Assembly: GCA_944388665.1 (NCBI GenBank)
Contig: CALXJQ010000007.1
Location: 1 to 36,318 of the forward strand
Direction of reading: 5' to 3'
DNA length: 36,318 nucleotides
Source: an uncultured Clostridia bacterium
GTDB lineage: Bacteria > Bacillota > Clostridia > TANB77 > CAG-508
The notes below the pieces were generated by a model. It worked only from the letters and a program-made list of their open reading frames with translations, ran no database searches and had not been told where the DNA came from. Both the position numbers and the translations under genes were made by a program. This document shows, piece after piece, positions 20,936-33,688 of this stretch; within the stretch, counting starts at the first letter, position 1, and each line of letters opens with the position of its first letter.

Positions 20936-20964
20936 AAAAGGACTTAGGTCATCCCTAAATCCTT
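20936..20964 (-). terminator. Ancestral valS terminator, now after the valS relic
   Basis: AAGGACTTAGG (20938-20948) pairs with CCTAAATCCTT (20954-20964) in an 11-bp stem with one wobble around a 5-base loop, followed on the minus strand by TTTTG. The corresponding hairpin after the intact valS (30891-30911) lacks the outer pairs and the T run. Confidence 0.7.
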
Positions 20965-21475
20965 TAAATTTTATCAAGCATATCTTGATATTTTTTCAAT
21001 TTTTCTCTTTCTTCTTCCACCTTTGCCTTAGGCCAATCACTTACCATTAGTTCTTTGCTATCGTAATTCACTAATTTATCGTAAATCTCAGATGTAACAA
21101 ATGGCATGAAATGCAACACCTAAATCGTAATTTTCAATATTTACTGTAATTTCCCTGATTAATGTATTTAATTTGTTCATTATCCACTTGTCTTCTATTG
21201 TTAAAGCATCATCTTTATATGTATTCTTTTCTTCGACATAGTTTTCTTTTCTGAATTGTATTATTTTCTCTTCTTCTGGCCTATTCATTATTATAAATTT
21301 GGCTGCATTCCAAATTTTGTTTGCAAAATTAGATGCTTGCTCTAGTTTTTCTGGCATATATCTTATGTCATTTCCCATTGTTGTACCTGATAATAATGAA
21401 AATCTTAATGCATCTGCTCCATATTTATCAATTATTTCGATCGGGTCAATTCCATTTTCCAATGTTTTTGACATT
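20941..21475 (-). pseudogene. valS 3' relic with two internal deletions
   Basis: 535 bases that match the end of intact valS (30891-31994), with roughly a dozen substitutions by eye. Relative to the intact gene it lacks 414 bases between two copies of CTTAGG (relic position about 21027-21032) and 155 bases at about 21110. The 414-base loss is in frame and the 155-base loss is not. It begins at the KMSK signature codons (MSKTLENGIDP) and ends past the stop into the terminator. It cannot make a synthetase. Several differences are synonymous (for example in DPIEI), suggesting divergence while still a working gene. Confidence 0.92.
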
Positions 21476-21494
21476 ATTAATATTCATTATAACA

Positions 21495-22332
21495 TTATAA
21501 ATCTTTATAATATATATCTCTTGTATAAACTTTGTTTTTTATATCTGTTAATTCATTTTCCCACCTATTAGCTAAAATAATATCAGCTTTCTCACAAAAA
21601 TCTTTAAAGTTATTTATTACATCGCATTCATCAAATTTATTTACTTTTAACATTGGTTCATATATTATTATATCGACATTTTCTTTCTTTAAAATTTTAA
21701 TAATATCTTGAATTGCGCTCTCTCTAAAATTATCAGAATGTTTTTTCATTATTAATCTATATATGCCAATAACTCTTGGATTTCTTTTCATTACCATTTT
21801 TGCAATATGATTTTTTCTAGTTACATTTGAATTAATAATTGATGTTATCAAATTATTAGGTATTCCTACATAACTTGAAACTAATTGCTTTGTATCTTTA
21901 GGTAAGCAATATCCCCCATATCCAAATGACGGATTATTATAATGGTTGCCTATCCTGTCATCTAGTCCAATACCTTCAATTATATCTTTAGAATTTAGTC
22001 CTTTCTCGCAAAAATTCTGGTGAAAAGATAATCTTTTCTATCTTATATTTTGATTTATTAAAAATATGTTTTTTTTCATCATAATTCGTAGGTGTACATA
22101 TTATAATATATTTAGCATCTTTTACTTCTTCATAATTTGTCGTTGCCTTTAATTTTAAGTCTTTATCTTTAAAAAATTTTTTTATATATTCATCATCTAT
22201 TGGGCTTATTCTTTTATTTATCATTTCAACTTTTTCTGGTATAATATCTAAAGCTATAACATCATATTTTTGACTTAATAAAGTAGCTAAAGATAATCCT
22301 ACATATCCGCATCCAACTATTGCAATTTTCAT
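21495..22332 (-). pseudogene. Decayed UDP-glucose 6-dehydrogenase
   Basis: The N-terminal part (22332 to about 21988) has the Rossmann motif IAIVGCGYVGLSLATLL, then TPTNYDEKK and FSPEFLRE. The region 21860-21995, in another frame, encodes GLDDRIGNHYNNPSFGYGGYCLPKDTKQL with the catalytic cysteine (shown here as key residues GGYCLPKD). The last part (21851-21495) is the C-terminal domain (KNPRVIGIYRLIMKKHSDNFRESAI pattern). A working enzyme is about 390 residues; here two segments are missing, between 'KKHIF' and 'IIFSPEF' and between 'FLRE' and 'KDIIEGIG', and the frame is broken. It would have made UDP-glucuronate for surface polysaccharide. It lies next to the valS relic. Confidence 0.85.
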
Positions 22333-22380: not shown

Positions 22381-23167
22381 TTATCTTTCTTCTAATATCT
22401 CTTTTTTAATTTCTTTTTCTTTTATACTCTTTATAACATACCCCATTATTTTTTTTAAATTTTCAATTTTCATTCTATGATTTTCTCTTGGAACTTTTAT
22501 TAATTTTGCAACCTTATTATTTAGATTTGTGAATTTTTCTGTATCACCTATTAAAGCAGTATCATCATCCGTTCCATGAAAAATTAACATTTTTTGTTTT
22601 AGTTCTTTGTTTCTTTTTAATATATCATTTTTTGTTAAATCTTCATAGAACTTATATAATACTTTCATTTTTTCATTTCTCCCCATTCTTGCTATTCCGT
22701 TTCCTGCGATATTCACTAAAATTTTCTTTTAGTAAGGTGTGTTTTAATACATCTTTCATATTTACTGCTGGTGATTTTAATATTACATATTTATAAAATA
22801 CATTTCCATCTAAAAAACTATTTATAGCTATATAACCTCCAAAACTCGTAGCCATAAGCGATATATCTTTTTGAGGAAAATTATCATTAATATAAGTTCT
22901 AACAACATTAATATCTGATACGCAATTTTTAACAGTAAATTCTTCTATTTCTGCTTTACTTTCTCCATGAATTGGAAAATCAAAAGCTACAACTCCTATA
23001 CCTCCATCTAAAAACATTTGTGCAATCAATTTTGAAATTGGACTATCTTTATCTCCACCAAAACCATGACACATTATAATTATATCTTTTGAATTTATTG
23101 GAATATTAATAACAGTTGGTATATTATATCCCGTAATCTTATTTTTAATATTAATTTTTGTATTCAT
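22381..23167 (-). pseudogene. Alpha/beta hydrolase, copy 1, frameshifted
   Basis: The first frame (23167-22673) encodes the N-terminal two thirds: IIIMCHGFGGDKDS (oxyanion region), DFPIHGES, and the nucleophile elbow MATSFGGY. The second frame (to 22381) encodes the remainder with the acid residue region FHGTDDDTALI and the histidine region PRENHRM. The switch is near 22705-22715, around the SEYR / GIARMGRNEK junction, and needs one indel. The family is a peptidase S9/BAAT-like or serine aminopeptidase hydrolase; substrate unknown. A paralog is at 29206-29962, with the same break class. It starts 7 bases after the transglutaminase-like gene. Confidence 0.8.
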
Positions 23168-23174
23168 ATAAGTT

Positions 23175-24494
23175 TTATCTTTCCCCCATATCTTTTTTCT
23201 CTGCTTTTATTAAAATTCGTTCTTTTTTATGAATGATTTTTCTTCCTTCGTCTTGGAACAATATTGTGGCTTTTATATTGTGACTATAATCTTCTACTAC
23301 TAAATTACAACCTTCAATTTTATATAAAAATCTTTCTCCATTTACTTTAGTTAGTATTTTCCCATCTCTTATAACTATGTTGTTTTTTATTATTTCTTCA
23401 AACTTTTTTCCACTTCTTATCAATCTTTTTTCAAAAATACTAAATAATCTTAAAAATTCATTATTATGAACAATGTTTCTATCCGCTCCATTTTTCTTTA
23501 GATAATCTAATAAAATAACATTAAACTTCGGTCTAACAAATATTTTATTTTCATTAACTATTTCATTCCATTCATTATTACTAAATTCTTTAAATAAAAC
23601 ATTTAGTCCTATTATAAAACATTTATCTCCTATTTTAATTACTACACCTCTATCTCTTTTGTTTTTCTTATCAAGTATCAAATCCAATTCTTTATTAATT
23701 ATATCTTTTTCATCTACAAAAAAATTCAATACTTGGATTCTACTTTGTTCTTCTTTAGAAAATATCTTACTTATTACAGTATTAATGTACATAACTAAAT
23801 CTACTATACCATTTATTCTGTTCCTATTATTCAAATGTTCACATATATATTTCAATTTATTTTCTATTATTTTATCTCTTTCACTTTCTAAGCTAATTGT
23901 TTGCCTCATATTGCTGTCAAAATAACTTTTTATTTCTTCTAAAATGTTATTAAGATACTTATTTCCATTTTTATATCCAATTCTATCGTCTATTTCTTCT
24001 AATTCTTCATCAGCAAAAAAACTAATTTCTTTATACATTCCTTTATAAATTTTATTATAATAGTCCTTACTCGCAAAATTGTTTGTTTTTAAGCCTACCT
24101 GCATTTCAACTAAATCTGATAAAGGATCTACAATATATCTTTTTCCTGTTTTAGTTACTATCATTAAATCAATATGTCTGAATTCATCAGAAAATGGCGA
24201 TATTAATTCTGAATCAATATTATAATTTTCTTTAAGAACATTTTTAATAATCTCACAATAAGTTTTACAAACAATTGAAAAATCTTTAATGTCAGTAATA
24301 TCTACTTTTTTATTATATATATCTTTTCTATCTATTAAATTTTCTTTATTTAAGAAAAAAGTATAATCTCTATAAAATAAATTAGATAAATTCTTTAATG
24401 TACTTCTAACAATTGCTATTTCGTATCTATCTTTAGATAATTTTTCTATTTCTTTTAATTGGATTATTTGTTTGATATATTTATATAGATTCAT
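23175..24494 (-). CDS. Uncharacterised protein with transglutaminase-like Cys-His-Asp pattern
   Basis: 439 residues, no signal peptide, mostly helical and charged. Residues 70-125 show the order expected of a transglutaminase/papain-like core: C76 at the start of a helix (DFSIVCKTYCEIIKNVL), then H107 in FRHIDLMIV, then D123 in GKRYIVDP. This corresponds to the 'C ... HAWNEV ... WYxVDP' triad. The remaining ~300 residues resemble nothing I recognise. The start at 24494 has GAGAGGAAT upstream. Because the triad looks intact, it may be an active cysteine protease, amidase or protein-modifying enzyme. The neighbour 7 bases downstream is an alpha/beta hydrolase. Fold assignment is by eye and uncertain. 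Confidence 0.5.
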   Translation of the reverse strand: MNLYKYIKQIIQLKEIEKLSKDRYEIAIVRSTLKNLSNLFYRDYTFFLNKENLIDRKDIYNKKVDITDIKDFSIVCKTYCEIIKNVLKENYNIDSELISPFSDEFRHIDLMIVTKTGKRYIVDPLSDLVEMQVGLKTNNFASKDYYNKIYKGMYKEISFFADEELEEIDDRIGYKNGNKYLNNILEEIKSYFDSNMRQTISLESERDKIIENKLKYICEHLNNRNRINGIVDLVMYINTVISKIFSKEEQSRIQVLNFFVDEKDIINKELDLILDKKNKRDRGVVIKIGDKCFIIGLNVLFKEFSNNEWNEIVNENKIFVRPKFNVILLDYLKKNGADRNIVHNNEFLRLFSIFEKRLIRSGKKFEEIIKNNIVIRDGKILTKVNGERFLYKIEGCNLVVEDYSHNIKATILFQDEGRKIIHKKERILIKAEKKDMGER

Positions 24495-24575: not shown

Positions 24576-25454
24576 TTATTGATTAAATGCTTTTTCAAAT
24601 TCAGCATTTAATTCAATTTTTAAGGGATCACTTAATATGTTATATTTTTTCAGTAATCTTTGCCTCCATTCTTCATGGAAAAAGTTAAAATCAATATTTT
24701 TCTCTTTTTCTATCATTTTCATCTTTGAAGTTAAATACATATACGCACCTATAAAGTTTAAAGCCCTATCTTTTTCTCTTTGATATCCAACTGAATGGGT
24801 TATACTATGTCCATTATCACAGGTATAATTATATCCAATATACTCTATCATAACTACTCTTTGACAATTAGCTATAATCACTGGTACAATAGCATAATCA
24901 CTACTAGATTTAAAGTTAGGCTCATCTTGAATGATTAGTGCTTTTTCCCTTTTCATGGCATATAACCAAAAAATTTCGTATCTCTTATCTGGATTATTCC
25001 ATCTTCTGATTGCTTCTATTCCAGAATACAAAACATTACAATCAGAATTATAATCATTATATAACTCATGATCAAATCCTGGTTTATCGTTAATCATTTT
25101 ACACCTAAATCGTATCATATCAATATTAGGAAATTTTTTCAATGTCCCCTCAATATTAGAAAGTAACTCGCAATTTATAGTGTCATCCGAATCAATAAAA
25201 ATAACATAATCTCCTTTAGTTAGGGATACTCCTATTTTTCTTGCTTTCGTAACACCTCCATTTTTCACATGATACACTTGTATTCTTGAATCTTTTTTAG
25301 CATATTTATCTAGTATTATTGGGCTTGAATCCGTTGAACCATCGTCAATAATAATAACCTCAAATTCTGAATATGTTTGTTTCAATACACTTTCTAAGCA
25401 TTTCCGCAAATATTTTTCCGAATTGAAAACAGGAATTATGATACTGAACAACAT
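24576..25454 (-). CDS. Glycosyltransferase family 2
   Basis: 292 residues from ATG 25454. The GT-A nucleotide-sugar domain is clear: FSIIIPVFNSEKYL at the start, VIIIDDGSTDSS (metal/nucleotide Asp), GVTKARKIGV and the DSDD motif in YVIFIDSDDT. The C-terminal half is less conserved (acceptor side), with no transmembrane helix. Such enzymes add sugars to surface polysaccharide or teichoic-type polymers. An upstream in-frame codon at 25493 exists but the strong TAAGGAGGATATT just before 25454 decides the start. It has its own promoter (25499-25527). The neighbouring decayed UDP-glucose dehydrogenase fits a surface-glycan theme. Confidence 0.9.
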   Translation of the reverse strand: MLFSIIIPVFNSEKYLRKCLESVLKQTYSEFEVIIIDDGSTDSSPIILDKYAKKDSRIQVYHVKNGGVTKARKIGVSLTKGDYVIFIDSDDTINCELLSNIEGTLKKFPNIDMIRFRCKMINDKPGFDHELYNDYNSDCNVLYSGIEAIRRWNNPDKRYEIFWLYAMKREKALIIQDEPNFKSSSDYAIVPVIIANCQRVVMIEYIGYNYTCDNGHSITHSVGYQREKDRALNFIGAYMYLTSKMKMIEKEKNIDFNFFHEEWRQRLLKKYNILSDPLKIELNAEFEKAFNQ

Positions 25455-25498
25455 AATAATATCCTCCTTATTAAAATAGTATTTACCTAACAATATTA

Positions 25499-25535: not shown

Positions 25536-26265
25536 TCAATCTATTCCATAAAATATTTTTAGTACGTGTTTATATCCAGGAAACGATAATTCATTAATAT
25601 CTTCAATTACTTTCTTTACATTATATTTAACTTTTAATTGCTTATACGTAATTGTTGTTCTATCAATATTTAATATTCCATATGGTGCTTCATCTGTTTT
25701 GCCCGGACAGCCTAAGGCTCCAGGATTTATATAATATTTATTAGAACTCTTATTATAAATTCCAACATGAGTATGACCATATAAATAAATATCTGCATCA
25801 ATATCCTTAAACATTTCTTCGTTATCTTGTAAATTAGCAATTTTTATATGTTTTTTAAAATTCATTTCATTATCCATTGGATAATGAGCCATATAAATTT
25901 TCTTGCCTAATATTTCTATCATGTTTTCTCTAGGTAAAGATTTTATAAATTCTATTGAGGTATTACTTAAATGCTTTTTTATCCATTCATTTCTATCTAT
26001 CTGTTCCTTACTTACTTTTACTTTTTCATCATGTACTATTGTTGGCATCCCTTCTATTATGTATTTTTCTCTATTTCCTCTTACACATATACATTTTTCT
26101 TTTATTAGTAATATTTTTTGTATTACTTCCTCTGATTTTCCTGCTCCGTCCTATAAAATCACCTAAACAAATTATCTTATCTATATTTTCTTTCTCTATT
26201 TCTTTTAACACAGCATTCAAAGCATCTATATTGCCATGTATATCTGATATTATTCCTATCTTCAT
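25536..26265 (-). pseudogene. YfcE-type metallophosphoesterase, frameshifted
   Basis: ATG 26265 (RBS GGGAGGAAAAT) opens MKIGIISDIHGNIDALNAVL and IICLGDFIG, the first two metal-binding motifs of calcineurin-like phosphoesterases. The frame then breaks near 26140-26155. The other frame reads GAGKSEEVIQKI, ...CVRGNRE (third motif), MAHYP, and YGHTHVG (last motif GHTH), then INPGALG, the pattern of the YfcE/MJ0936 phosphodiesterase family. All metal ligands are present, split over two frames. The break lies in a G-rich stretch where GGACGG would need two more G to read FIGRGAGKS. Confidence 0.85.
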
Positions 26266-26339
26266 AAGATTTTCCTCCCCCGTAACTCTCTTTTTCAACG
26301 ATTATATAATAAGTATATACCTTTGTAAAGGTGTTATAT

Positions 26340-26404: not shown

Positions 26405-26908
26405 ATGAACAAAATAAAAAATTGGCTTGATGAATCTATGGAATTTGAAGGTACTCTCGGCATGGCTATTGCAAATCATAATATAAAAAACTTACCTGGT
26501 GAATATATTTTTGATAATGGATTTATAAATGTAACTGCCGATCCTGAAATTCCAATTATGGGACTTGTAATTTTAGGAACTAATAAGCCCTATTCCAGTA
26601 TTTGTGAATTTACTAATGAACAAAAAATGCAAATATATAATATATCTGACAAATTAATAGATACTTTACATCACGTAGGCTTTAATAATATTATTCAATT
26701 TCAAGATGAAGGTAGTGATGGTCAATTTCATATTTGGTTTTTGCCTAGACATAATTGGACATATCAATTTGGAAACAATTTAGACGATATGGCAAAATAT
26801 TCAAAAACGGTATTAAATATTTCAAGCAAATATAGGAAATCCTTATTAGATTGTATTTCTACAATAAAAACTATGTTTATTAATCAAATAGAAAAAGAAA
26901 CAGATTAA
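26405..26908 (+). CDS. HIT-like protein with degenerate histidine triad
   Basis: 167 residues, the only convincing plus-strand gene. It has the layout of a histidine-triad fold: NLPGEYIFDNGFINVTADPEIP, the strand GLVILGTNKPYSS, the helix FTNEQKMQIYNISDKL, and a terminal segment GQFHIWFLPRH where HxHxHxx-PR is expected. By alignment on the PR, the triad reads Q107-H109-W111, so only the middle (nucleophile) histidine is kept. The same domain, with a different partial triad, forms the second half of the WG-repeat protein at 28371. ATG 26405 is preferred over the ATG nine bases upstream, which runs into a stop immediately. It converges on the radical SAM gene, with which it shares a palindromic terminator. 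Function unknown. Confidence 0.6.
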   Translation: MNKIKNWLDESMEFEGTLGMAIANHNIKNLPGEYIFDNGFINVTADPEIPIMGLVILGTNKPYSSICEFTNEQKMQIYNISDKLIDTLHHVGFNNIIQFQDEGSDGQFHIWFLPRHNWTYQFGNNLDDMAKYSKTVLNISSKYRKSLLDCISTIKTMFINQIEKETD

Positions 26909-26930
26909 TCTGTTTCTTTTTCTATTTGAT
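26883..26930. terminator. 48-bp perfect palindrome, bidirectional terminator
   Basis: The whole 48 bases are self-complementary, with arms rich in A on the left and T on the right (GAAAAAGAAACAG / CTGTTTCTTTTTC) around ATTAAT. It lies between the convergent genes at 26405-26908 and 26938-28212, and includes the TAA stop of the first. Both strands have a T-rich exit, so it can stop transcription from either side. Confidence 0.8.
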
Positions 26931-26937
26931 GTGCCAA

Positions 26938-28212
26938 TTAATATTCAAAGAAAAATTCTATATTGTCCAAATTATCTTGAACTTTTAAAACTTTCCATAG
27001 ACTATCCATGAATTTATTATCATTATAGGCACAACAGTCTTTGCAATTTTTGGGACAATTTTCTTTGATAAATTTTGCATTTGCTCCATTCATCATTGTT
27101 TCTAATTCACCAATATTTCCTTCCATTACTCCATAGTGATATGATAAATCTGTTATCCTATCCCACAATACACAGCACATTAAATTCGTTCCGTATAATG
27201 GAGGTGATACAAGTGAACTCCAACATCTAGACGGCTTGACCTCTTCTCTTAAAGACCGATCATTGTAAATCTTACTCAAGTCATTTGGAATTTGAAAACT
27301 AGAAATACCAAATTTTCTGTAGTTTTCTTTTAATTCTAACAACTCACTAATTGCCTGACAAGTCATACTTTGACTTTGATGTTTACCATATTCAGGTGTT
27401 AATACCTTTACAGCTTGAAAAGCGTCTACTCCAAATCTTCCGACTGTTTCTAAGAAGTCTGTATAATGACCATCATTTAAAGGTCTAATACAAGTTCTCG
27501 TTCCAATCAAAAGTTCATCTTCTCTACCATACTGCTTTCTTTTTTCACATAATTTTTCAACTAATCTTATTGCATCATCATATTCAAAAGAATTTCGAAC
27601 AACTTGGCCTGAATAAACCTCATAAGCTGTTGTAGATATACCAGGAAAACTAATTCTTATACACGAAGCATAATGTGCCAAACAATCAATAAGTTCTTCT
27701 GACATTTTACTTCCTGTACTGACATATACTATCTTCATTCCACATTCTTGGGTAGCAAATTTAATCATTTCAATTCTGTCTTTATACAAATCTGGATTTC
27801 CTTCGCCACACAATTCAAATCTTACATTTTCACATCCTCTTTCTTTTGAATACCTTGAAATTTCTTTCAATACTTTTTTATAAAGTTCAATAGGAATTAT
27901 AGGATATTTGATATGATTATCTGAAATAGCCCATTCCCTGCTTGGGCAAGCCAAGCAATCTACACAATTAAAATCACAGTAAGGAATGTCTTTACTACTA
28001 ACCGACAAAATCGGAATTTTCTCAATACCTTCCTTTACTCCTTTTTTAATTGCTTCACAATATTCTTTAATACTTAGTGGATAAAAATGCTGTGGAAAAA
28101 TTTTATCAGTCAACCAAATTGTTTTCCCCGTTGTTACATCCGCGGCAATTATTCTCTTTGGACTAATTAACCGCTCTTTACTAAAACTTTTTTCAAACTG
28201 TCTGTTTTTCAT
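26938..28212 (-). CDS. Radical SAM enzyme with C-terminal cysteine cluster
   Basis: 424 residues from ATG 28212. The radical SAM [4Fe-4S] motif CxxxCxxC is at C79-C83-C86 (YCDFNCVDCLACPSREW, key residues C79, C83, C86, with C89 also nearby), followed by the SAM-contact strand VRFELCGEGNP. A C-terminal cluster C386-C390-C393-C394 (CPKNCKDCC) could hold an auxiliary Fe-S centre, as in SPASM/twitch enzymes. The product is not known; no precursor peptide is evident within 300 bases. The strong site AAGGAGG decides the start over an in-frame ATG 18 bases upstream that overlaps the RBS. It lies between two HIT-like genes. Confidence 0.85.
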   Translation of the reverse strand: MKNRQFEKSFSKERLISPKRIIAADVTTGKTIWLTDKIFPQHFYPLSIKEYCEAIKKGVKEGIEKIPILSVSSKDIPYCDFNCVDCLACPSREWAISDNHIKYPIIPIELYKKVLKEISRYSKERGCENVRFELCGEGNPDLYKDRIEMIKFATQECGMKIVYVSTGSKMSEELIDCLAHYASCIRISFPGISTTAYEVYSGQVVRNSFEYDDAIRLVEKLCEKRKQYGREDELLIGTRTCIRPLNDGHYTDFLETVGRFGVDAFQAVKVLTPEYGKHQSQSMTCQAISELLELKENYRKFGISSFQIPNDLSKIYNDRSLREEVKPSRCWSSLVSPPLYGTNLMCCVLWDRITDLSYHYGVMEGNIGELETMMNGANAKFIKENCPKNCKDCCAYNDNKFMDSLWKVLKVQDNLDNIEFFFEY

Positions 28213-28275
28213 GTCCTTTTCCTCCTTCAAATGAACAACATTTTCAGATTAATACACAAAAGCCTCTCTTTGATT

Positions 28276-28304
28276 ATGTTAACATTTTTTTTTACTTTTG
28301 TCAA
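28276..28304 (-). promoter_or_regulatory. Promoter of the radical SAM gene
   Basis: Minus strand TTGACA (28304-28299), 17-bp spacer, TAACAT (28281-28276), giving a ~57-base leader. The spacer holds a long A run. One or two mismatches in the -10. Confidence 0.6.
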
Positions 28305-28330
28305 TTTTTTATTCACTATTTTTTTAACCA

Positions 28331-28363
28331 TATTAAAGAGGAGAAGAAAATATCTTCTCCTCC
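28331..28363 (-). terminator. Hairpin after the WG-repeat/HIT-like gene
   Basis: GAGGAGAAGA (28338-28347) and TCTTCTCCTC (28353-28362) form a perfect 10-bp stem with a 5-base AAATA loop. On the minus strand TTTAATA follows, so the T tract is short. It starts 8 bases after the stop codon. Confidence 0.6.
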
Positions 28364-28370
28364 AAGCTAA

Positions 28371-29114
28371 TTACGGATTTAACAGTTCTTTCACCTGCTC
28401 TGCAAACAGCAAAAACGATTTTTTTTGTTCTATTGACATATTCTTACGAGCATAAGTGGTTATTTGCTTTAAATTCTTCCCCCTACCAAATTGGAACATC
28501 CAATCATCCGAAGGAATAATCCATCTTCTATAATGTTCTGAAAAACCATCTTCAAACAAAAGAATATTTTTTGCTCCAAGTTTTTCTAAAGCTACTTTTA
28601 CCTTATTTGTAATTTCTTCTATTTGGATTCTTTCTTCTCGTGTCAGCATAGTTGTTGAAGAAATATGTTTTTTAATTCCAATTACAATAAATCCACGAAT
28701 TGGAATTTCAGGATCAATTGTTACATTAATGAAATCATCTTCATATAGGTAACCACCTGGTAAATTAGTAATAGTATGATTTCCAATTGCACAACTCTTA
28801 CAGCCTTCAAAAATCATTTCTTCATTCATAAAATTAGTAACGGCTACTTCATCTCCTTGTAAATTCAAATAGCACTTTTTACCTTCTTTTTCTACAACTC
28901 CAAGTTTGTTTTGGAAATCTCCTACTGCTTCATACCTAATTTCACAAACTTCCTTTCCTTGCTCATTAATATAACCCCATTTGTCATTTACTCTTACTGC
29001 TGCCATTCCTTCTGAATAATTCCGAATCTCATCATAGATAAAGTCACAGATAAGTTCTCCATATTCATTTTTAACTCCATACTTACCGTTTTTTCCTCTT
29101 TCAATGCTTAACAT
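28371..29114 (-). CDS. WG-repeat protein with C-terminal degenerate HIT-like domain
   Basis: 247 residues. Residues 1-95 are WG-type repeats (KYGVKNEYGELICDFIYDEI, then KWGYINEQGKEVC, then the weak repeat GVVEKEGKKCYLN), a beta-repeat found in binding proteins. Residues 100-247 resemble the neighbouring plus-strand HIT-like protein: NHTITNLPGGYLYEDDFINVTIDPEIPI, GFIVIGIKKHISSTTMLT, then HYRRWIIP at the triad position. Here the first histidine is kept, the second is R and the third W. The start 29114 has AAGGAGG upstream. It precedes the radical SAM gene on the same strand, with its own hairpin in between. Function unknown; the shared domain suggests a functional link with its paralog at 26405. 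Confidence 0.6.
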   Translation of the reverse strand: MLSIERGKNGKYGVKNEYGELICDFIYDEIRNYSEGMAAVRVNDKWGYINEQGKEVCEIRYEAVGDFQNKLGVVEKEGKKCYLNLQGDEVAVTNFMNEEMIFEGCKSCAIGNHTITNLPGGYLYEDDFINVTIDPEIPIRGFIVIGIKKHISSTTMLTREERIQIEEITNKVKVALEKLGAKNILLFEDGFSEHYRRWIIPSDDWMFQFGRGKNLKQITTYARKNMSIEQKKSFLLFAEQVKELLNP

Positions 29115-29185
29115 AAAAATGCCTCCTTACAATCTGTTTACGTTTTTAAATCCTGTTAGCTTTTGCATTGTAAAACTGCAGTATA

Positions 29186-29214
29186 ATTATAGCATTTTTT
29201 CATAATTATGTCAA
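29186..29214 (-). promoter_or_regulatory. Perfect consensus promoter of the WG-repeat gene
   Basis: Minus strand TTGACA (29214-29209), exactly 17 bp, TATAAT (29191-29186). It overlaps the stop codon of the upstream hydrolase gene. Leader to the start is ~65 bases. It shares the 12-mers ATTGACATAATT and ATGCTATAATTA with the promoter at 25.5 kb. Confidence 0.75.
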
Positions 29215-29962
29215 TTTAATCATTTTTAACATTTCGCAAGTAATATCTTTAATTTCTTCTGGTTCCATATGATGATTTAATCCTTCTATTTCTATAAGTT
29301 GGATTTCTGGTTTATTCATTATAAATTTATATGTATCTTTAATTAAAGCCGTATCATCTAATACTCCTTGTATTATGATTATTTTTCTCTTTTCTTTATA
29401 ATTTTTGTATAAATTATTTTTCTCTATATCTTCTAAAAATGAATAATCTATTTCTTTTTCTCCGTTATGACCTGCTCTAGCTTTTCCTGTCTGCCTATAT
29501 GAAGATAAACTATCTTTTAACAAACTTCTTAATAGTATTTCTTTCATATTAATCGCTGGTGAGCGCAATATTATATTAGAATAATTATCTTTATCATTTA
29601 TTAGTTTGTTCAATAATATGTATGCTCCAAAGCTAATTGCATAGAAAGAAATCTTAACATCCGAACCAAATTCTTGTTTAATATATGAAATAACTGAATT
29701 TATATACGAAATACAAATATCAACAGTTAACTTTGACATATTTTGTTCACTTTCACCATGTCCTGGAAAATCAAATGAAATAGATGTGACGCCCTTTTTT
29801 AAAAGTTCCTTAGCTACTATTTCAATAGAATTACTTTCTTTTTTACTGCAAAAGCCATGACAAAAAATAAAAAAGTTCTTACCGAATTTTTGCTCCGTAA
29901 AACACTTTTGCTTTTATATTACATTTTTCTTTTTGATTTGGAATATTAATATTCTTTTCCAT
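29206..29962 (-). pseudogene. Alpha/beta hydrolase, copy 2, frameshifted
   Basis: ATG 29962 (RBS GGAGGAT) opens MEKNINIPNQKEK...KAKVFYG and stops. The frame continues one base away as FTEQKFGKNFFIFCHGFCSKK, DFPGHGES, the nucleophile elbow YAISFGAY, GVLDDTALI and the histidine LNHHMEP. The break coincides with a T4/A4 run at 29899-29902: one base fewer restores the frame. The paralog at 22381-23167 has the same order of motifs, including NMKEI and DDTALI. It is the last gene of the unit with the three small genes upstream. Substrate unknown. Confidence 0.8.
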
Positions 29963-30778: not shown

Positions 30779-30913
30779 CCTTTTTCTCCTTTTTTATAAT
30801 AAAATACTGGTTTTATAGAAACTTGTGTCAACTATTTATTCATAAATTAATTTATATTGTCTGCAATCTATTATTTTTATATATTTTAATGACTTAGGTC
30901 ATCCCTAAATCCT

Positions 30914-33574
30914 CTAAATTTTATCAAGCATATCTTGATATTTTTTCAATTTTTCTCTTTCTTCTTCCACCTTTGCCTTAGGAGCCTTATTAACAAAGCC
31001 TGGATTTGAAAGCATCTTTTGGCATCTTTCTACTTCTGCTTTTAGTCTTGCTCTTTCTGCTTCGATTCTCTTTTTTTCTTCTTCTAAGTCAATTAGCCCC
31101 TCTAGTGGCATATATAGCTCTAAGTTATCTCTTACGATGCTAATTGAATTTTCTGGAATATTAGTTTTGTCTTTCTGGATTATTAATTCATCACCAAATC
31201 CAAATTTCAATAAAATCTTTTCTAAAGATTTTAGATTATTTTTTATATCATCATTTTTCGTTACAAATATTAGTTTTGATTTTTTGCTTGGATGAATGTT
31301 TTTAGTATTTCTAATATTCCTTATTTCTATAATGATTTCTTTTACTAGTTCTATCATATTTTCTTCAGCTTTATAGTCAAAGTTAGCTGTCTTAGGCCAA
31401 TCACTTACCATTAGTTCTTTGCTATCATAATTTACTAATTTATCGTAAATCTCAGATGTAACGAATGGCATGAATGGATGCAATAGTTTTAAGCAATTTC
31501 TGAAGACTTCGTTTAGCACGAATGAAACTTGTATTTTGGCATTTTCATCTTCTCCATATAAGCGTAGTTTTGCCATTTCTATATACCAGTCGCAAAATTC
31601 GTTCCACATAAAGTTATAAAGTTTATCTAATGCAACACCTAAATCGTAGTTTTCAATATTTACTGTAATTTCCCTGATTAATGTATTTAATTTGTTCATC
31701 ATCCACTTGTCTTCTATTGTTAAAGCATCATCTTTATATGTATTCTTTTCTTCGACATAGTTTTCTTTTCTGAATTGTATTATTTTCTCTTCTTCTGGCC
31801 TATTCATTATTATAAATTTGGCTGCATTCCAAATTTTGTTTGCAAAATTAGATGCTTGCTCTAGTTTTTCTGGCATATATCTTATGTCATTACCCATTGT
31901 TGTGCCTGATAATAATGAAAATCTTAATGCATCTGCTCCATATTTATCAATTATTTCAATTGGGTCAATTCCATTCCCTAATGTTTTTGACATTTTTCTT
32001 CCTTGACTATCACGTACTATTCCATGAATTAAAACATCGCTAAATGGCTTGTCTTTCATGGCGTATAAGCTTGAAAATACCATTCTTGCTACCCAGAAGA
32101 AAATAATATCATATCCAGTAACTAATACGTCTGTTGGGAAAAATGTTTTTAAGTCTTCTGCATTTTTATTTGGCCAGCCAAGAGTTGAAAATGGCCATAA
32201 TGCTGAACTAAACCACGTATCCAATGTATCTGGATCTTGATGTAATTCTGTTGAACCACATTTTTCACATTTTTCTGGCTTTGTTTTAGCAACATTTATG
32301 TGTCCACATTTGTCGCAATAATATGCTGGTATCTGGTGTCCCCACCATAACTGCCTAGATATGCACCAATCTTGAATATTTTCTAGCCAGCTAAAATATA
32401 TTTTTTCATATCTTTTTGGTACAAATTTGACATCACCATTTTTTACTGCTTCAATTGCAGGTTTAGCAAGGCCTTTCATTTTTACAAACCATTGCTCAGA
32501 TATTCGTGGTTCTATAGTTGTTTTACATCTCTCACATTTGCCAACATTATGAGTATAATCTTCGATAGATACTAGTGCGCCTAACTCTTTTAATCTTTTT
32601 ACTATTATTGGCCTTGCATCTATTGATTTCATACCTTTTACCTCTGGCATTAAATCTCCCATAATTGACTTTTCATCAAATACTTCGATAATCTCTAAAT
32701 TATATTTTAATCCAGCATTATAATCATTTGGGTCATGTGCTGGAGTTATCTTTACACAGCCAGTTCCAAATTCTTTTTCTACAAAATCATCTGCAATTAT
32801 TGGTATTTCTCTGTTGACTATTGGAACAATACAAGTTTTTCCAACTATATCTTTATATCTCTCATCATCAGGATGTACTGCTACTGCAGTATCTCCAAGC
32901 ATTGTTTCTGGCCTAGTTGTAGCAACTTCAACATATCTATCTTCACCTTTTATTTTGTACCTTAAATGCCACAAATGTGAAGCCTCTTCTTTATACTCTA
33001 CTTCTGCATCTGAAATTGCTGTATTGCAATTAGGGCACCAGTTTACCATTCTAGTTCCTTTATAAATTAGGCCATCATTATATAAATTAACAAATTCTTC
33101 TAATACTGCATCTGATAACCCTTCGTCCAATGTAAACCTACGCCTATCCCAATCACAAGAACAGCCAATCTTTTTTTGCTGATTTTCAATGGTTCCACCA
33201 TATAGTTTTGTCCAATCCCAACATTCTTCCAAGAATTTTTCTCTTCCAATATCTTGTTTAGTTTTTCCTTCTTCTCTTAGTTTTTGTACAACTTTCATTT
33301 CTGTTGAAATTGATGAGTGGTCGGCCCCAGGAACCCACAAAGTATTATACCCCTGCATTCTTTTAAATCTTATTAATATATCTTGTATTGTACCATCTAA
33401 AGCGTGACCCATGTGTAATTTTCCAGTTACATTTGGTGGAGGCATTACTATACAATAGCTCTCCTTTGCTGTATCCATACTTGGCTTAAAATAGCCTGAT
33501 TCTTCCCAATGCTCATATAACTTATCTTCAAAGTTTTTTGGGTTAAACTTATCATCTAATTTTTTATTAGGCAT
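30914..33574 (-). CDS. valS: Valyl-tRNA synthetase
   Basis: 886 residues from ATG 33574. Class I synthetase that attaches valine to tRNA-Val and edits threonine. It has the HIGH motif as HMGH (residues 54-57, in NVTGKLHMGHA), the CP1 editing domain (TTRPETMLGDTAVAVHPDD), a CxxC...CxxC zinc module (CDKCGH, CEKCGS), KMSKT near residues 526-530, the anticodon-binding domain and the C-terminal coiled coil (YQDML...). Two further ATGs lie at 33583 and 33580, but AAAGAAAGGA is properly spaced only from 33574. Regulated by the upstream T-box. Its 3' end is duplicated as a relic at 20941-21475, and its own terminator is damaged. Confidence 0.97.
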   Translation of the reverse strand: MPNKKLDDKFNPKNFEDKLYEHWEESGYFKPSMDTAKESYCIVMPPPNVTGKLHMGHALDGTIQDILIRFKRMQGYNTLWVPGADHSSISTEMKVVQKLREEGKTKQDIGREKFLEECWDWTKLYGGTIENQQKKIGCSCDWDRRRFTLDEGLSDAVLEEFVNLYNDGLIYKGTRMVNWCPNCNTAISDAEVEYKEEASHLWHLRYKIKGEDRYVEVATTRPETMLGDTAVAVHPDDERYKDIVGKTCIVPIVNREIPIIADDFVEKEFGTGCVKITPAHDPNDYNAGLKYNLEIIEVFDEKSIMGDLMPEVKGMKSIDARPIIVKRLKELGALVSIEDYTHNVGKCERCKTTIEPRISEQWFVKMKGLAKPAIEAVKNGDVKFVPKRYEKIYFSWLENIQDWCISRQLWWGHQIPAYYCDKCGHINVAKTKPEKCEKCGSTELHQDPDTLDTWFSSALWPFSTLGWPNKNAEDLKTFFPTDVLVTGYDIIFFWVARMVFSSLYAMKDKPFSDVLIHGIVRDSQGRKMSKTLGNGIDPIEIIDKYGADALRFSLLSGTTMGNDIRYMPEKLEQASNFANKIWNAAKFIIMNRPEEEKIIQFRKENYVEEKNTYKDDALTIEDKWMMNKLNTLIREITVNIENYDLGVALDKLYNFMWNEFCDWYIEMAKLRLYGEDENAKIQVSFVLNEVFRNCLKLLHPFMPFVTSEIYDKLVNYDSKELMVSDWPKTANFDYKAEENMIELVKEIIIEIRNIRNTKNIHPSKKSKLIFVTKNDDIKNNLKSLEKILLKFGFGDELIIQKDKTNIPENSISIVRDNLELYMPLEGLIDLEEEKKRIEAERARLKAEVERCQKMLSNPGFVNKAPKAKVEEEREKLKKYQDMLDKI

Positions 33575-33688
33575 TTTCATCATTCCTTTCTTTTAGTGTA
33601 GTGGTTTTTAAAATCAAGCAAATCTAACTTGCTATACCTTTTTGCTTTCAATATTTGATTTAAGGTCTAGCAAGAAGCATATAAAATC

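Follow-up and report, generated by a model that had tools for sequence, protein, structure and literature searches.

Why should a radical SAM enzyme be encoded between two proteins that resemble histidine triad (HIT) proteins, each of which has lost a different part of its triad? The question was raised by a sequence-only reading of a 36,318-nt stretch of DNA (the window) from an uncultured Clostridia bacterium, whose assembly is a 1.4-Mb draft in 97 contigs. All three genes were confirmed as open reading frames: a stand-alone HIT-like protein of 167 aa (26405-26908, plus strand), a radical SAM protein of 430 aa (rSAM; 26938-28230, minus strand), and a 247-aa protein (WG-HIT; 28371-29114, minus strand) in which two WG repeats (Pfam E = 7e-19) are fused to a HIT domain. 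The best named relative is contig CAJFJM010000038.1 (genome G021), from an "uncultured Clostridia bacterium" of the chicken gut, whose rSAM is 98% identical to that of the window.

Two HIT-like proteins and their triads

Pfam reported a HIT domain for neither window protein, both being below its cut-off; the ortholog in G017 gave a Pfam HIT match with E = 0.037, and a relative in G043 scored above the cut-off. When the PDB was searched by hmmsearch with a profile of 25 relatives, the best 13 matches were all HIT proteins (top E 4.6e-5), and hhalign against 14 canonical HITs of the same taxonomic order gave a probability of 96.1%. AlphaFold models of the 167-aa HIT and of WG-HIT reached pLDDT values of 45 and 48, low because the alignments held only the window sequences and one near-identical locus. 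With the low-confidence model of the 167-aa protein, the top 31 Foldseek matches were all HIT (TM 0.3-0.5, best E 0.02), while the WG-HIT model was uninformative for its HIT half, giving propeller-like and a few low-ranked HIT matches. The profile search, hhalign and Foldseek all point to the fold that had been proposed, supporting the view that both window proteins are genuine, divergent members of the HIT superfamily, though probably not catalytically standard ones. No HIT homologs were found in viral contigs.

Profile alignment to canonical HITs (HLHFH) placed Q and H, in the stand-alone HIT and WG-HIT respectively, at the first triad His, H and R at the second, and W in both at the third; the triads Q-H-W and H-R-W, read from the strands Q-F-H-I-W and H-Y-R-R-W, were therefore correctly recognised. 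The two domains are 38-41% identical and share the motif NLPGxYxxxDxFINVTxDPEIP, as already noticed. The canonical H-H-H, on the other hand, turned out to be the wrong baseline for this family, since H-H-W is found in all 30 other related HIT proteins (from the genus and one Priestia plasmid). In the tree, the HITs of the clusters, together with a protein of G014, join the WG-HITs (support 91/79), apart from the H-H-W family, which argues that the two kinds of HIT are sister paralogs from that family. The window HIT groups with the G014 protein (97/93) and not with the other cluster HITs, which shows that copies have exchanged components. This closest relative (L072 8107-8583) is a solitary HIT with the triad T-H-W, with neither a WG-HIT nor an rSAM nearby.

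The triad of WG-HIT is H-R-W in all seven distinct sequences, and in all seven other genomes that carry the gene in such a cluster. The seven distinct stand-alone HITs read Q-H-W (window), N-H-N (three), Y-H-N (two) and N-H-S (one). The middle His is always kept in the stand-alone HIT and is always Arg in WG-HIT, and for the first His the reverse is true. The complementarity first described for the window is thus conserved in 7/7 proteins of either kind, and on this comparison it goes beyond chance. The nucleophile in HinT is the middle triad His, and MccH is an active HIT with a replaced third His (PMC7157772), so that Trp or Asn at the third position is no proof of inactivity. The description of both domains as inactive-looking stood for WG-HIT, where the missing nucleophile argues against standard catalysis, and fell for the plus-strand HIT, because its middle His, which usually serves as the nucleophile, is retained. 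Such reciprocal, conserved loss of catalytic residues in two linked HIT paralogs provides a natural test of how a pair of enzyme and pseudo-enzyme evolves.

Composition and spread of the cassette

Matches to the rSAM were found in 10 of 211 genomes of the genus, seven of them at full length, and all seven genomes with a full-length rSAM carry both HITs, so that the co-occurrence expected of the three genes was borne out. Both HITs are present in 8/211 genomes overall, the eighth being G604, whose rSAM is degraded. A naive hypergeometric estimate for the co-occurrence is 2e-12, a value inflated because the genes are linked. Beyond the genus, in samples of the class and phylum, there was no full-length rSAM match and one weak match to the core.

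The unit is larger than three genes. Its core consists of an alpha/beta hydrolase, WG-HIT, a transglutaminase-like (TG-like, Cys-His-Asp) protein, HIT and rSAM, and the span 26405-29114, at first taken as the unit, misses the hydrolase, the TG-like gene and the swappable PRTase/NADAR or phosphoesterase/family 2 glycosyltransferase (GT2) genes. Full copies (G017, G210, G016, G046 and G604) carry on one strand the alpha/beta hydrolase, WG-HIT, a Cys-His-Asp/PRTase protein of 834-854 aa, gp30.3 and HIT, with the rSAM convergent in G017, G016, G046 and G210. The genes of G017 overlap or abut, suggesting an operon; in G016 the 854-aa gene is split, and the cassette of G046 is divided between two contigs that break off within it, one with each HIT. 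In G597 the hydrolase, WG-HIT, a TG-like protein without PRTase, HIT, rSAM and GT2 are all co-directional, and the window and G021 hold this gene set plus a phosphoesterase in another order. The core hydrolase is intact in G017, G016, G046, G210, G597 and G604. Gene content is retained across rSAM identities of 58-61% despite the differing order.

Remnants of the cassette were seen in G002 and G058, and GT2, which adjoins the rSAM in G597, lies beside the rSAM remnant in G002. In the latter genome (L029 204-761) an in-frame chimera joins the N terminus of WG-HIT to the C terminus of rSAM, by an apparent deletion at a shared DFQ/FQ stretch; this implies an ancestral arrangement like that of the window, with both genes on one strand and WG-HIT lying upstream. 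Upstream of WG-HIT itself, a conserved TAGTTTTACTATA..TTAGCTAATTAG follows a TATAAT-like box and is weaker in the window; this upstream stretch (window 29115-29205; L026 14291-14397; L027 14499-14613; L071 5744-5847; L079 5173-5263; L080 13889-13986) is possibly an operator or leader.

What the window carries is a variant of the cassette, rearranged and in part decayed. Its HIT, rSAM, WG-HIT and TG-like genes are open, the last encoding 439 aa (23175-24494, minus strand) and being assigned by motif, and GT2 (24576-25493, minus strand; Pfam E = 8e-35) is the accessory gene of this variant. A YfcE-like metallophosphoesterase (25536-26298, minus strand) is frameshifted and the core-set hydrolase (29206-29962, minus strand) is broken near its N terminus; both breaks are unlikely to be assembly errors, because G021 has them too. 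A second, more distant alpha/beta hydrolase (22381-23167, minus strand) is split across two frames, and the PRTase and NADAR genes are absent. The gap of the convergent HIT and rSAM genes contains a perfect palindrome, detected by self-match (26883-26930; RNA fold -28.1 kcal/mol, z = -11.7), probably a bidirectional terminator for both genes; in the other copies this gap holds a different strong hairpin.

The 3' region of valS (30914-33583, minus strand) recurs in pieces about 10 kb away, 20938-21474 repeating 30888-31928 at 95-99% identity with internal deletions, so that the cassette forms an island with the intact valS on one side and a mosaic remnant of valS on the other; this arrangement may record an insertion or duplication event. 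Short fragments adjoining the island (21988-22332 and 21495-21851) resemble UDP-glucose/UDP-mannuronate dehydrogenase and are probably a decayed sugar-nucleotide gene. Elsewhere in the genus, the cassette adjoins serine recombinases (G017) or integrase and relaxase genes (G210). We read the translations of the G210 flanks (L071 1688-3118, 12482-13320) as a tyrosine-integrase-like protein and as relaxases resembling MobA and MobC, so an integrative mobilizable element probably carries this cassette as cargo.

One could then ask whether these are unrelated cargo genes on one mobile block, with the window holding decaying remnants between two valS copies. The broken hydrolase and phosphoesterase, the valS fragment duplicated on the flank, the remnants in G002 and G058 and the degraded rSAM of G604 would all fit this explanation, which we nevertheless regard as very unlikely: the same genes stay together in varying orders and across two rSAM lineages that have diverged, WG-HIT was never found without HIT among the 211 genomes, and purifying selection is strong. 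Indeed, dN/dS is below 0.25 for rSAM, WG-HIT and hydrolase, with WG-HIT strongly constrained at 0.05-0.15, and for the stand-alone HIT it is below 0.2 among non-window copies and 0.33-0.37 for the divergent window protein, values to be read with dS near saturation in many of the comparisons.

The radical SAM enzyme and the exchangeable modules

The core cysteines of the rSAM (C85, C89 and C92, in CX3CX2C) are invariant, and so is the extra C-terminal cluster to which attention had been drawn (C336, C353, C392, C396 and C399). Pfam radical SAM matched with E = 0.0011 in the window and 2.3e-4 in the L026 copy, both below the gathering score, and hhalign against a typical rSAM core gave 96%. The SPASM pattern CX9-15GX4C is nearly matched, and of CX2CX5CX3C plus a final Cys the enzyme has only CX3CX2C(C); no SPASM profile of Pfam or NCBIfam matched the window rSAM. 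A PDB sequence search with the rSAM gave no matches, and no viral, phage or plasmid homologs of it were found.

Such a SPASM/twitch-like Cys set, and the core similarity to SPASM-type enzymes, would also suit a RiPP-like cassette, in which a peptide would be modified by the rSAM and trimmed by the Cys-His-Asp protein or the hydrolase, with the HIT conferring self-immunity or acting on a peptide-nucleotide, like MccH for microcin C. The protease-like triad of the TG-like protein is in keeping with this, as is the precedent of MccH, active with its changed third His (PMC7157772). We consider this reading unlikely, given that the intergenic spaces of the copies hold no conserved small ORF, a lone 21-residue similarity linking two flanks only, that no leader-binding domain, ThiF/MccB or exporter was seen, and that PRTase and NADAR would be left unexplained.

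The swappable modules are either a PRTase with a T4 gp30.3-type NADAR, or a phosphoesterase with GT2. Of the two halves of the 854-aa protein in full copies, the window TG-like protein has the N-terminal one and lacks the PRTase half. Its Cys, His and Asp occur in order and are conserved in seven sequences, including a 28%-identical relative; the label comes from this motif, with no profile match, and a PDB sequence search with the TG-PRTase protein gave no matches. In the relatives, the PRTase has a putative PRPP-binding loop (LLLIDDNVGSCNTM / LLLDDNIGTGATM) and matches Pribosyltran with E = 2.9e-5 (23.9 bits versus a cut-off of 26.3). The gp30.3 of L026 matches Phage_30_3 (PF08010) with E = 3.5e-28 (98.6 bits versus a cut-off of 36), and the cassette protein retains motif residues of a phage gp30.3, including His177. 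Phage gp30.3 is a NADAR that hydrolyses guanine-linked ADP-ribose (PMC11125620).

PRTase and gp30.3 genes were also found in G052 and G029 (L075 4294-8864, L076 11736-16109), with genes for a PHP protein, a thymidylate-kinase-like protein and a DUF84 NTPase and without HIT or rSAM, as a separate candidate nucleotide-handling cluster; the company of kinase, NTPase and PHP protein supports a nucleotide role of the PRTase/gp30.3 module.

Compared with the prokaryotic viperins of PADLOC, the rSAM showed a weak match across its core (E 3.6e-10). Viperins have no C-terminal Cys set, and the identity was rejected on this extra set and on a score of 33.9 bits versus the 180-bit equivalog cut-off. An anti-phage or conflict system, for example one directed at ADP-ribosyl or altered nucleotides or employing them, would nonetheless draw on this match, on the NADAR component and on the patchy spread beside the integrase, relaxase and recombinase genes. 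PADLOC, however, matches no system for any other component and no ART toxin gene was seen, and together with the low viperin score and the C-terminal Cys set these results make us doubt such a system.

A proposed pathway and its relation to known systems

Function and pairing we infer from what the comparison establishes directly: composition, co-occurrence, paralogy, the conserved split triad and purifying selection. Our preferred explanation, held with somewhat less than even confidence, is that a mobile element carries a cassette for nucleotide metabolites (or for nucleotide conflict), in which a small molecule linked to a nucleotide is processed by the products of the five core genes, a catalytic/pseudo-enzyme HIT pair among them. 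An H-H-W HIT ancestor would have been duplicated; the stand-alone HIT, with its central His nucleophile, may still form or resolve a His-nucleotidyl intermediate, and WG-HIT, having lost the nucleophile and kept the first His and the domain, could act as a nucleotide-binding or allosteric partner, the simplest form of such a partnership being a HIT heterodimer. Substrate or product would be modified by the rSAM in a radical reaction, and PRTase with NADAR, or phosphoesterase with GT2, would be exchangeable steps making, trimming or decorating a ribosyl or sugar part. The product might be a metabolite, an antibiotic or an immune molecule.

Several observations count against this explanation. 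PRTase and NADAR, the most direct pointers to nucleotides, are missing from the window copy; SPASM-type rSAMs usually act on peptides; and the genes might co-occur because a single mobile block was inherited. In known HIT dimers, moreover, each triad is carried by a single strand within one subunit, which means that two half-triads would not simply make a whole. A bolder reading seems to us improbable: that duplication and reciprocal loss produced a split-catalyst HIT heterodimer, with the nucleophilic His on one protein and the first triad His on its WG-fused partner, and that this pair, the SPASM-like rSAM and the swappable modules together constitute a new mobile pathway whose product is a modified nucleotide-like metabolite or an immune signal. 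Should a nucleotide-like molecule indeed be made or destroyed by the cassette, gut Clostridia would have a new mobile pathway.

Among known systems, the HIT superfamily (Hint/Fhit/MccH; PF01230) shares with the cassette proteins the fold order, the PG.(Y)E...DP.P motif and the triad strand, HIT chains are the top solved-structure matches, and WG-HIT has an N-terminal CxxC-like region. The cassette proteins differ in the WG-repeat fusion, in scores under the Pfam cut-off for both, and in the triad, where the canonical H-x-H-x-H-x-x gives way to H-H-W in the family and to Q/N/Y-H-W/N/S and H-R-W in the cassette. The likeness to the MccH clade of microcin C resistance HITs (PMC7157772) lies in the replaced third triad residue and N-terminal catalytic His, whereas MccH has Lys at the third position and keeps the first two triad His, and the cassette HITs have Trp, Asn or Ser there, have lost the first or middle His and have no mcc genes. 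A microcin C-type cluster was rejected, MccB/MccE-type genes and a precursor peptide being seen in no cassette copy.

With SPASM/twitch enzymes the rSAM has in common the CX3CX2C core, a C-x10-G-x4/5-C and a distal Cys group; it has fewer Cys than a full SPASM, scores below the Pfam and NCBIfam cut-offs and comes with no precursor peptide that we could find. Its similarity to prokaryotic viperin (pVip) is confined to a weak one across the radical SAM core, far under the family cut-off, and it has an extra C-terminal Cys domain and no kinase neighbour. The gp30.3 gene of the full copies has the conserved motif residues of T4 gp30.3 and phage NADARs (PF08010), but stands in an operon with TG-PRTase and HIT genes, and is absent from the window. 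No HIT-rSAM cassette is described in the openly accessible literature that we searched, in line with the initial view that no system of this composition had been characterised; the combination matches no described system found, and its parts all come from known families.
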